Positions 41,532 to 44,278 of a stretch of 44,355 nt of DNA are shown in pieces (position 1 is the first letter of the stretch; each line of letters opens with the position of its first letter). The position numbers and the translations under genes are program-made. Source of the DNA: Methylomonas rivi (GTDB lineage: Bacteria > Pseudomonadota > Gammaproteobacteria > Methylococcales > Methylomonadaceae); assembly GCF_024505165.1 (NCBI RefSeq), contig NZ_JANIBK010000022.1:1-44355 (forward strand), in the 5' to 3' direction. The notes under the pieces were generated by a model that saw only the letters and a program-made list of their open reading frames with translations, was not told the origin of the DNA and made no database searches.

Positions 41532-41942
41532 GTGCGAATTATCAAAATTTTAGTGACGCTGTACGCTGTTAGCTTTAGCGGCATCGGCATGGCGCAATCA
41601 ACGGGAGGCCACGGCGGCCATGGCGGCAGCGGCGGAGGTAGCGGTACGGATTGCATAAAAGCCAAAATAAGCAGAAACGCGCCTGAGCATTTAGCCACCG
41701 TGGCACCGGGTTCGGAATTCTCATTTGCGGCTTCCGGCAGTAACGGCCCCGGCCATATTCATGTCAGCATCAAGCAACACCCCATCGAAGTTACGCTTGA
41801 AGATAAAGACACCTTTTATCTGGTGAAAGGCAGACTGCCGGCAGAGATTAAAAATACCGTGGTGCGCATTTCGGTCTCGCTTAAATCCAAATTCAGCAAA
41901 TGCGACACCGAGGGCGGCTGGCTGTTGAAAGTATCCGAATAA
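41532..41942 (+). CDS. exported protein with Gly-His-rich N-terminus
   Basis: A 136-residue protein of unknown function. The start is GTG at 41532, chosen because a perfect AGGAGG (41521-41526) stands five bases before it. A signal peptide covers about 1-21 (cleavage after GMA). The mature N-terminus is GGHGGHGGSGGGSG, which could bind metal, followed by one Cys (TDCIKAK) and a beta-rich domain. A second Cys lies near the end (KFSKCDTEGG), so a disulfide is likely. The fold may be Ig-like, but this is only an impression. Confidence 0.82.
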   Translation: MRIIKILVTLYAVSFSGIGMAQSTGGHGGHGGSGGGSGTDCIKAKISRNAPEHLATVAPGSEFSFAASGSNGPGHIHVSIKQHPIEVTLEDKDTFYLVKGRLPAEIKNTVVRISVSLKSKFSKCDTEGGWLLKVSE

Positions 41943-42002: not shown

Positions 42003-42347
42003 TCAATCCCACTCAAACAGCAGCCATTGATTGATCTCGGTACCTTTATCCAGATCGTTTTTCTTCACATCCATGACGCCGTCGCCGTTTTTGTCCAATA
42101 GATAATAAGGCGGCCCGACTTGGGGCTGCACTTTAATCATGTACAATTTTCCATTCCTGCGGTACTCCTGAATGGTGTCCTTGCCTTTACGTATGATAGT
42201 AATATCCGGCTCCATTTCCTCTCCGGATTGAATGCGCGGAGGCAACTCCGGCGGCTCGGGCACGGCCGGCGGCTCTTCCAGCGTCTGCTGCGCCCAGACC
42301 AGGCCCGGCACAACAAATAGCAAACTCAACACGTACTGGCGAAACAT
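42003..42347 (-). CDS. DUF2782 periplasmic protein
   Basis: A 114-residue exported protein. The signal peptide ends at VWA near residue 19. A proline/glutamate-rich stretch (EEPPAVPEPPELPP) is followed by the compact domain PDITIIRKGKDTIQEYRRNG...KVQPQVGPPYYLLDKNGDG, which matches the gammaproteobacterial DUF2782 family. Function is unknown. AGGGA five bases upstream supports the ATG. A strong terminator isolates it from the repeat-protein gene upstream. Confidence 0.85.
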   Translation of the reverse strand: MFRQYVLSLLFVVPGLVWAQQTLEEPPAVPEPPELPPRIQSGEEMEPDITIIRKGKDTIQEYRRNGKLYMIKVQPQVGPPYYLLDKNGDGVMDVKKNDLDKGTEINQWLLFEWD

Positions 42348-42500: not shown

Positions 42501-43886
42501 TCAGCTTTGTTTACGCAGATATTTTTCCACGCCGGTGGTTCTAACGAACCCCGCATCGTCGGCATGAGCATGCTTAACTACATAGCGTTCAACACCGGAA
42601 ACGGGCGAGGCATCCTTAGCCAATAAACTCTGCTTAGACATGTATCTGGCCACGCCGGTTAGTTCAGCGCTTTCCTTATCTTGCAACTCCTGGCGCAACA
42701 AATACTTGCTGACAGAACTAACGGACACAACCGGCTTGGCAACCAGAATCCGCTTGGCCAAATATTTACTCACCCCGGTTTGAGGTGCCTGTTGCCTGGC
42801 CAAAGTTGCTTGCTTCGCCAGATACTTGGCAACACCGCTCATGGGTTCCAACTGGCTTTGCAATTGAATCTGCTTGGCCAAATATCTAGCCACTCCGGTT
42901 GGCTTGGCAACATCGGAGGCGGCTTGTCTGGCTATATATTGAGCAACACGCGAGCCTTCAAAGACCTCCTCGGTAGGATCGTCTAAATCCCGTGTCTTTT
43001 CGGCTTGCTCGGCTTGTTGCAATGCTCGTTCCGCTTGCATGCCGGCTTCCTGTTCCCGATAACGCGCCACCAACGCTGCCGCCGCAGCTTTTTTAGCCGC
43101 TAGAGCCTGCTGCGCTACAAATTTGGCCACCCCTGTAGCCGGCACCCGTTCTTGCTCCATTTTTTCCAGCGATTTTATATAATTGGCCACACCGGTAACT
43201 TTTGGCGCATCCTTGGCAAGCAAGGTTTGTTTGCTGACATACTTGGCGACACCCGTCGCTAGAGGCGCATCCTTTGCCTGCAATTCATTTTTCAGCACAT
43301 ATTTAGCCACGCCGGTAACACCTGGCGACGCGCTTTCGCGCATGCTTTGCTTGGTCACGTACTTGGCGACTCCCGTCACCACATGACCCTCGTATTCTTG
43401 CTTGGTCACGTATTTAGCAACGCCGGTAACCGGAATTTCGCGCGATAAAATCGATTGCTTCAACAAATATTTAGCAACCCGCGTGATAGGGTTTTCGCTT
43501 TGCTGAGATAGATATTTCTCAACTCCGCTCGGCTCAGGCTCAATTATCGCTTCGGGCTCGACAATCTCTTCAATAATCTCTTCGACGACGTCTTCTTCGA
43601 CATCTTCCAACACAGCCTCTTCAACCTGAATTTCTTCCTCGGGTTCAGGCTCGGGCCCTTCAATAACCGGCTTATTGGCATCTTCAAACGCTTGCAGCTG
43701 CGCCAAATACCGTTCAACGCCTGTTTGCTCAAGTTTTTTTAGATAGCGGGCAACGCCAGTCAATTGAGCGCCTTCTTCGTTGGCAGCGGCGCCTCTTGCT
43801 TCGACTGCACCGCCCGCTGACGGTTTATCGAAAAACAAGGGCGGCAAAATGCCAAATAAGCTATTCATCAAACTGTTTTTTTTCAT
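42501..43886 (-). CDS. tandem-repeat protein with nineteen TGVxKYL units
   Basis: A 461-residue protein of unknown function. The N-terminus is not a clear signal peptide, though residues 7-20 are hydrophobic. Nineteen units of consensus [T/S]GVAKYLxKQ occur between residues 43 and 461. In two blocks, 171-271 and 330-430, they recur exactly every 20 residues. Each unit looks like one amphipathic helix (GVAKYLAKQ-xLLAK) ended by a proline turn (DAPxV). Residues 78-118 form an acidic linker rich in E, V and I. AGGAG ten bases before the ATG supports the start. It could be a multivalent scaffold; I recognise no family. A strong terminator follows. Confidence 0.9.
   Translation of the reverse strand: MKKNSLMNSLFGILPPLFFDKPSAGGAVEARGAAANEEGAQLTGVARYLKKLEQTGVERYLAQLQAFEDANKPVIEGPEPEPEEEIQVEEAVLEDVEEDVVEEIIEEIVEPEAIIEPEPSGVEKYLSQQSENPITRVAKYLLKQSILSREIPVTGVAKYVTKQEYEGHVVTGVAKYVTKQSMRESASPGVTGVAKYVLKNELQAKDAPLATGVAKYVSKQTLLAKDAPKVTGVANYIKSLEKMEQERVPATGVAKFVAQQALAAKKAAAAALVARYREQEAGMQAERALQQAEQAEKTRDLDDPTEEVFEGSRVAQYIARQAASDVAKPTGVARYLAKQIQLQSQLEPMSGVAKYLAKQATLARQQAPQTGVSKYLAKRILVAKPVVSVSSVSKYLLRQELQDKESAELTGVARYMSKQSLLAKDASPVSGVERYVVKHAHADDAGFVRTTGVEKYLRKQS
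42507..43760 (-). repeat. coding tandem repeats, 60-nt period
   Basis: These are the units of the TGVxKYL protein at DNA level. Cores start at codons 43, 55, 120, 135, 154, 171, 191, 211, 231, 251, 271 (degenerate ALVARY), 312, 330, 350, 370, 390, 410, 430 and 451. Codons differ between units while residues are kept, so the array looks old and selected rather than freshly expanded. Confidence 0.9.
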
Positions 43887-44002: not shown

Positions 44003-44278
44003 TTAGTTGCTTTCGCTAAAAAGCACTTTTGGCTGAAAACTGCTAGCCGGATATTTAGGATCTACTTCCGCTACAACATCTTGCTTCGCTGTATCAGCCT
44101 GACTGACACAAGGAACTGCCGCACTGTTGGCCGGTACCGCTGATTCAACGACAACCGACTCATCCCTGAACAACACTTTCGGCTGGAAATCGGCAGCGGG
44201 ATAATCCTGCGCATTAACGGCCGAGGCCGCCAATAATAACCCAACGAGCATTCCTTGGTTCAATTGTGTTTTTTTCAT
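44003..44278 (-). CDS. small exported protein with duplicated FQPKVLF motif
   Basis: A 91-residue protein of unknown function. The signal peptide is residues 1-23 (cleavage after VNA). The mature protein contains the same element twice, exactly 50 residues apart: YPAADFQPKVLFRDES at 26-41 and YPASSFQPKVLFSES at 76-90. One Cys is present (VPCVSQ). AAGG eight bases upstream supports the ATG. It precedes the repeat-protein gene on the same strand by 116 nt. I do not recognise the family; a repeated binding or assembly motif is plausible. Confidence 0.82.
   Translation of the reverse strand: MKKTQLNQGMLVGLLLAASAVNAQDYPAADFQPKVLFRDESVVVESAVPANSAAVPCVSQADTAKQDVVAEVDPKYPASSFQPKVLFSESN

Follow-up and report, generated by a model that had tools for sequence, protein, structure and literature searches.

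Near the far end of the window, by which we mean the whole stretch of Methylomonas rivi DNA analysed here (44,355 nucleotides), we confirmed an open reading frame on the reverse strand that encodes a repeat protein, S. A small exported protein, F, is encoded just upstream of it, and a terminator-like hairpin lies between F and the end of the contig; terminator-like sites in all numbered 7, against 2.8 expected from shuffles. The features of both proteins are collected in Table 1. Directly downstream of S there is a gene for an exported DUF2782 protein (42003-42347, reverse strand), and a similar gene occupies this place in three other loci (L033, L036, and L049). On the forward strand, positions 41532-41942 encode a small exported protein with a GTG start and a HGGHGGSGGGSG stretch, for which no Pfam or NCBIfam match was found.

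Table 1. Features of S, F and the adjoining hairpin, in positions of the window
Feature	Position	Strand	Basis
S, 19-core TGVxKYL repeat protein, 461 aa	42501..43886	-	ORF and core pattern count
S residues 4-20, hydrophobic N-terminal segment	43827..43877	-	invariant residues, hydropathy
S residues 43-61, first two cores, spacing 12	43704..43760	-	core pattern
S residues 72-118 (about), acidic linker, length variable, pLDDT <50 at 72-113	43533..43673	-	sequence, alignment, model
S residues 120-277, nine-core block	43056..43529	-	core pattern
S residues 252-301, long coiled-coil-like helix (predicted) through cores at 251 and 271	42984..43133	-	model
S residues 312-457, eight-core block, last core near C-terminus	42516..42953	-	core pattern
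F, 91-aa exported protein, two YPAxxFQPKVLF motifs	44003..44278	-	sequence, alignment
F residues 26-37, first FQPKV motif	44168..44203	-	motif
F residues 76-87, second FQPKV motif	44018..44053	-	motif
Terminator-like hairpin, 15 pairs, upstream of F at contig end	44308..44340	-	hairpin scan

The original prediction, made from the letters of the window, was of nineteen TGVxKYL repeats with an exact 20-residue period, and its count has stood: the pattern V[AES][KRNQ][YF] matches S 19 times (a pattern count), and 18 matches remain with the stricter core [TSR][GSR]V[AESN][KRNQ][YF][LVIM]. By comparison, 2000 shuffled copies of S contained at most one strict core each, with a mean of 0.001. The period needs to be qualified, as it holds for two runs of five steps but not overall; the 18 spacings are 12, 65, 15, 19, 17, 20 (five times), 41, 18, 20 (five times), and 21, so that 10 of the 18 are exactly 20. 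One core, AALVARY from residue 271, is degenerate. Read from its start, S consists of a short hydrophobic N-terminus, two cores, an acidic linker, nine cores, and eight cores. The acidic linker had been placed ahead of two repeat blocks and is indeed there, but 2 of the 19 cores lie on its N-terminal side. A coiled-coil-like stretch had also been proposed to split the blocks, and the AlphaFold model agrees, with a helix of 50 residues (252-301) that takes in the last two cores of the nine-core block. Tandem Repeats Finder returned a single row, of 29 bases, within the acidic linker; the protein repeat is therefore not a recent expansion of DNA, and its copies have diverged at that level.

Conservation is concentrated in the cores. 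From 510 units in 31 orthologues of S, we derived the consensus T-G-V-[AS]-[KR]-Y-[LV]-x-K-Q, in which the tyrosine is kept in 93 percent of units, the glycine in 81 percent, and the threonine in 79 percent (the valine stands at 100 percent, since it was the criterion by which units were picked). Across the 31 orthologues, mean identity is 0.89 at the 133 core positions, of which 66 are invariant, and 0.61 at the 299 remaining positions, counted from residue 30, of which 25 are invariant. Ahead of these, L6, M7, N8, S9, and G12 are invariant in all 31, and the best 12-residue mean hydropathy of the N-terminal region ranges from 1.22 to 3.21 in the 22 S-type proteins listed. Residues 4-20 may be a membrane anchor. 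The units are not the disordered, unconserved sequence that had been named as an outcome contrary to the original prediction, since they are conserved in relatives, though the linkers between them are predicted to be flexible.

The AlphaFold model of S, built on the 31-sequence alignment, is of low confidence (mean pLDDT 58.6, pTM 0.21) and comprises separate helices of 9-16 residues together with the one long helix. Within two residues, 16 of the 19 cores start a helix in this low-confidence model; there is none at cores 154 and 171, and core 271 lies inside helix 252-301. This arrangement of several short helical motifs on flexible linkers is the one seen in EPYC1-type linkers, and the side-by-side packing of repeats that marks a HEAT or TPR-like solenoid is absent, which at this confidence is a weak negative. 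S may therefore be better described as a string of short helices than as a solenoid. Both a multivalent scaffold and a solenoid had been suggested; with isolated helices and so low a pTM the solenoid loses ground, and the scaffold is the better option, for which the gene context described below supplies a likely set of partners, the enzymes of the ribulose-monophosphate (RuMP) pathway.

That no characterised family has this core was also part of the original prediction, and as far as tested this is correct: we accepted no match in Pfam, NCBIfam, or the PDB, and none of the characterised repeat families matched strongly. The closest candidate was PF12220 (U1snRNP70_N, the N-terminus of U1-70K), which scores 28.1 bits against S (cut-off 23) and matches 29 of the 31 orthologues at E <=0.01, with a best value of 1.1e-9. 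Only the summed score passes, the best stretch in the S of the window covering profile positions 10-48 of 92, and because no single stretch passes and the two appear to have little in common beyond a G-[VI]-A-x-Y-[LI] helix, we did not accept the match as homology. Other matches of S orthologues were taken as composition: in Pfam, ATP_synth_reg (5 of 31, best 9.7e-8), Zein (4 of 31, 7.3e-6), RHH_5 (3 of 31, 6e-5), HBD, HC2, ATP12, and others; in NCBIfam, SpoIIID (8 of 31, best 2.2e-4) and others. We treated TF_AP-2 (Pfam), TyroCdyMelC1 (NCBIfam), and MCM5 in the PDB (E 0.083) in the same way for S, and likewise six Pfam families that each matched one member of M, the membrane relative described next (best 0.0015). 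PDB sequences gave no match at E <=1 to the profiles of M (A1) or S (A2). The parts of the open-licence literature consulted hold no description of such a protein, and five core peptides used as text words found no match there.

M has a signal-like N-terminus, one or two FQPKV-type motifs, a single membrane helix, and usually three to five TGVxKYL cores. Its periplasmic motif reads YPAxxFQPKVxY. The hydrophobic segment is followed by net positive charge in all 14 of the M rows examined. Positive charge flanking a membrane helix marks the cytoplasmic side (the positive-inside rule), and because here it follows the helix, the FQPKV part is predicted to be periplasmic and the TGV tail cytoplasmic. 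The tail carries the core of S, so that, as in EPYC1-type linkers, one motif is found on the soluble repeat and on a membrane tether; the tyrosine kept in most S units is present in 100 percent of M units. In the genome to which the window belongs, TGVx[KR]Y[LIVM] has 19 matches, of which 18 fall in S and two M genes (reversed control, 1).

The second of these M genes is shorter and occurs in six genomes of the genus Methylomonas, including the one studied here (L201:4760-5353, on contig C24; the others are L035, L038, L209, L210, and L211). All six loci have mxaF and mxaJ next to it, with a response-regulator gene in between; mxaI was seen at five, the sixth stretch ending before that gene. 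NCBIfam and Pfam support these assignments with PQQ alcohol dehydrogenase (L201, L210, and L035), MoxJ (L201, L209, and L211), MoxG (L035), and MxaI (L035 and L038), and the remaining mxa genes were recognised by motif or by eye. One M is therefore placed beside formaldehyde-fixing enzymes and the other beside the formaldehyde maker. The periplasmic motif of the second M is degenerate (for example YQPAEYQPKISY or YEPEPYHPQVRY), which speaks against a single periplasmic ligand common to both. The gene that flanks the second M on its opposite side encodes a small exported protein; the one at L201 matches a polyketide-cyclase family, and judged by eye those at the remaining loci are similar.

F resembles the periplasmic part of M, with a signal-like N-terminus and without membrane helix or TGV tail, and F-Q-P-K is invariant in 23 aligned copies of its motif. 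Of 30 S loci, 28 have F just upstream of S; the other two, L010 and L019, are at contig edges. The FQPKV pattern alone does not exceed chance in the same genome (11 matches against 10 in the reversed control); with the YPA context added, it singles out F and one M among all but three of the matches. Beside ABC transporter genes in another genome (L212:8386-8712, G061) there is one more exported protein that has two FQPKV motifs but lacks a TGV tail.

It is the neighbourhood of these genes that points to a pathway. In other genera the common order is hps-hpi-tkt-M-S-tal-fba, the RuMP cluster, the genes encoding hexulose-6-phosphate synthase (HPS), hexuloisomerase (HPI), transketolase, transaldolase, and fructose-bisphosphate aldolase around M and S. 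By protein clustering, hps is a neighbour in 23 of 29 chosen loci, hpi in 21, tkt in 24, tal in 21, and fba in 17, and ten proteins from three loci pass the NCBIfam cut-offs (TIGR03128, TIGR03127, TIGR00232, TIGR00874, and NF006628). Of 16 RuMP loci from the family's other genera, 11 have M and S adjacent after tkt (L162, L164, L166-L171, L178, L181, and L206), with a gap of 2-3 bases in nine; S is elsewhere in the cluster in four (L163, L165, L179, and L205), and one holds M only (L172). L165 has hps-hpi-tkt-S twice in tandem, followed by hps-hpi-tkt-M. Counted over 27 S-type loci, hps was seen in 24, the misses being L180 (cut at the contig end), L173, and L044, and hpi in 19.

Methylomonas itself has a split arrangement, with hps-tkt-F-S in all five S loci that have long flanks and hps-hpi-tkt-M-tal-fba in all seven M loci uncut by a contig end. 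The closest relative of the window (L033) reads hps-tkt-F-S, with tkt just beyond the hairpin site upstream of F. The contig of the window stops just above F, that of its own M opens with the M gene, and hps, hpi, and the first part of tkt close a third; these ends fit our inference that near-identical copies of tkt broke the assembly. In named loci from Methylomonas (including Methylomonas sp. LW13), Methylobacter, and MAGs, tal follows M, or the tail of M at a contig start, in 20 of 20, and the five with full upstream flanks all read hps-hpi-tkt-M. Among the 61 other-genus genomes with both M and a stand-alone HPI among the matches listed, the two lie within 10 kb of each other in 58 (median 2.8 kb, maximum 3.2 kb). 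The exceptions are G202, G157, and G153, the first two having M near a contig start. In family f4, M lies near RuMP genes with no long S nearby (L174-L177, L199, and L042; L043 has only a 56-residue frame). M lies at a contig end in L204 (G178), with no RuMP gene in the 6.3 kb beyond. Family f10 shows the opposite case, S without M: a protein of 97-187 residues with 4-7 cores stands in hps-S-tal-hps-hpi in three of three genomes. We assign these families by inference, f4 to the Methylococcaceae, f7 to a Cycloclasticaceae-like and f10 to a Methylophaga-like group, and the order to the Methylococcales.

Within its own genus, 33 of 37 genomes encode S at full length; of the remaining four, G030 carries a fragment of it at the edge of a contig, and G003, G004, and G009 have short TGV matches only. 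In the order as a whole, the S profile matches 150 of 201 genomes, tails of M being counted, and the M profile matches 169 of 201 at E <=0.001, including every f1 genome and 28 of 38 f4 genomes. An M-profile match can come from S or F and is thus a looser mark than M itself. Cross-tabulated by hand against HPI over its curated cut-off, the 201 genomes divide into 163 with both, 6 with the match only (G026, G028, G044, G079, G136, and G178), 6 with HPI only (G057, G068, G085, G093, G109, and G114; six f4 genomes), and 26 with neither. Against AMO, the corresponding numbers are 146, 23, 20, and 12, several of the AMO-negative genomes being drafts, and 17 of the 20 AMO-only genomes lack HPI over the cut-off. 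M-profile matches hence follow the RuMP genes, as marked by HPI, better than methane monooxygenase. In 369 genomes of the class the M profile matches seven, and six of these are exactly the genomes with HPI over the cut-off; the seventh (G337) matches at E 5e-4, shows no cores where its sequence was read, and was taken as false. In G560, HPI stays below the threshold and the M profile finds no match. Three of the six belong to the distant family f10 and have no AMO match. It should be remembered that this co-occurrence represents at most two independent groups, as genomes within a group are related and their counts are not independent trials.

Cores also occur outside this setting. Two S-like proteins (L173:7137-8102 and L044:5442-6272) have about five cores and a Cys/His-containing C-terminal domain without a Pfam match, and no RuMP neighbours. 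TSVERYIQQQ repeats were found in a long Hpt-domain protein (L193:3-2549, G211), and a 2049-residue frame (G368:C10) also matches the core motif, both of these genomes belonging to f10.

We consider it probable, at roughly 60%, that S and M form a membrane-tethered multivalent linker that gathers RuMP enzymes, probably HPS, as EPYC1 and the RBMP proteins do for Rubisco. Each TGVxKYL core would be a short helix that acts as a docking motif, and nineteen of them on flexible links would give each S chain many weak contacts. The cytoplasmic tail of M, with the same motif, would hold the assembly at the cytoplasmic or intracytoplasmic membrane, probably with help from the hydrophobic N-terminus of S. 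The client would be a RuMP enzyme, and HPS is the most probable one because hps is the most constant neighbour of S. Formaldehyde fixation would in this manner be concentrated at the membrane, where formaldehyde arrives from periplasmic methanol dehydrogenase. We infer that the motif binds an enzyme and that this enzyme is recruited to the membrane; a condensate might form, and flux might gain.

Several observations count against such a linker. Six f4 genomes have HPI and no M-profile match, the M of G178 has no RuMP gene beside it in the stretch read, and the fused HPS-HPI genes, judged by their coordinates, lie at other places. The proximity of S and M to RuMP genes may reflect only co-regulation, and the core motif occurs in the Hpt-domain protein, the 2049-residue frame, and the two S-like proteins above. 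A client signature was sought by comparing stand-alone with fused enzymes. No residue is present in >=90 percent of 36 stand-alone HPS and <=15 percent of 16 fused HPS (the stand-alone set being loci L033 and up, minus six from f10 and the three of L196-L198, with a few maybe unlinked to M), and between 41 stand-alone and 19 fused HPI only the start methionine separates. This result lends HPS no support as the client, nor does it exclude it. In 1974 Ferenci, Strom and Quayle reportedly described a membrane association of HPS in Methylococcus capsulatus, which we have not counted as evidence. Five strongly expressed proteins of Methylomonas sp. DH-1, selected from 2D gels, are reported to include MxaF, TAL, and HPS (PMC8645107, in the portion available), which fits a massive formaldehyde step and is silent on S or M. 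The M. capsulatus genome paper reports a duplicated RuMP repeat, and the text available of it describes no extra gene there (PMC517821).

A more elaborate version, which we put forward tentatively and at well below even odds, would make M a trans-membrane coupler. Its YPAxxFQPKVxY motif would hold methanol dehydrogenase or a partner, and its TGVxKYL tail the RuMP enzymes cross-linked by S, so that formaldehyde made on one face of the membrane could be captured on the other before it spreads; F might serve as a free periplasmic competitor or cross-linker. This version is weakened because the M that lies beside methanol dehydrogenase genes is the one with only a degenerate periplasmic motif.

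The cores could also stick to one another. Like-with-like contacts between the TGVxKYL helices of S and M would then build a membrane scaffold, with enzymes held otherwise or not at all. We regard this as unlikely, though it has points in its favour: S and M share the core down to its tyrosine, neither HPS nor HPI bears a client signature, and PYCO1, a red-type pyrenoid linker, is described with "oligomerizing sticker motifs" in the title of its report (PMC10288592). Self-association sits poorly, however, with an M tail kept in f4 without a long S nearby and an S kept in f10 without M, and the predicted helices of S do not pack together (at low confidence).

Improbable, in our judgement, is a structural role for M, S, and F in the pMMO-housing intracytoplasmic membranes, their RuMP site only securing co-expression during C1 growth. 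The biogenesis of these membranes is stated to be unknown in the text available (PMC9445010), and M is a predicted membrane protein whose profile matches throughout f1 and in most of f4. The profile nevertheless tracks HPI better than AMO, most AMO genomes that lack it lack HPI as well, and the f10 genomes have S and no AMO match. A pMMO or intracytoplasmic-membrane scaffold was in fact our first idea and was dropped over the AMO tallies given above. Very unlikely, too, is a general localisation or signalling dock, such as a polar or chemosensory hub, in place of a metabolic enzyme. Such a dock would account for TSVERYI repeats in an Hpt-domain protein, for matches in the 2049-residue frame, and for S-like proteins without RuMP neighbours; against it, all but one of the pattern matches in the genome of the window fall in S and the two M genes, and two groups as distant as f1/f4 and f10 both show the RuMP context. 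Finally, that S is a low-complexity protein without specific partner, as its low-confidence linkers, acidic and alanine-rich stretches, and composition-type matches such as Zein and HC2 might suggest, can practically be dismissed, given that the cores are conserved across 31 orthologues and persist in M and f10, and that the gene order is conserved as well.

A membrane-tethered RuMP linker would resemble known multivalent linkers but serve a new pathway, and its membrane partner would bear motifs on either face. CsoS2 of carboxysomes, also a long repeat protein, binds Rubisco through short motifs, and its gene lies among those of its clients. S is likewise a long repeat protein encoded among genes of its presumed clients, but S and M would use a membrane tether and a different motif, and no shell-protein gene was recognised by eye among the genes of the S and M loci read. 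For PYCO1 we know of no membrane partner with the same motif. Like this linker of the diatom pyrenoid, S appears to be a repeat linker with sticker motifs, from a different organism and for a different client (PMC10288592, in the portion available). A parallel in design comes from Chlamydomonas, where one motif on the soluble linker EPYC1 and on membrane proteins (RBMP1 and RBMP2) is reported to organise Rubisco, the proposal being that the membrane proteins with this motif anchor the enzyme matrix to membranes (PMC10473226, available in part). Here, too, there is a repeat linker with several copies of one motif, a membrane protein with the same motif, and a carbon-fixing pathway; S and M are bacterial, however, with a client that is only proposed and a periplasmic motif of M's own, and the likeness drawn here is one of design.

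Formaldehyde is a toxic intermediate that arises in the periplasm while its fixation is cytoplasmic, and how methanotrophs stop it from spreading is, to our knowledge, an open question. The literature consulted, as far as its text was available, mentions no extra protein with methanotroph RuMP genes. A conserved membrane protein and a linker in the RuMP cluster of most of the methanotroph order, M and S would be candidates for a natural way of organising formaldehyde fixation in space. Engineered Mdh-Hps-Phi fusions are reported to join the formaldehyde maker and fixer to speed capture (PMC8879981, in the text available). The arrangement proposed for S and M would bring maker and fixer together as well, but as a natural, membrane-spanning one in place of a man-made fusion, and it could be of use for synthetic methylotrophy, where enzyme fusions have already been tried for the same end. 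The 18 f7 and two f8 genomes, in which neither HPI over the cut-off nor an M-profile match was found and 14 of the 20 have AMO-family matches, form a natural control group.
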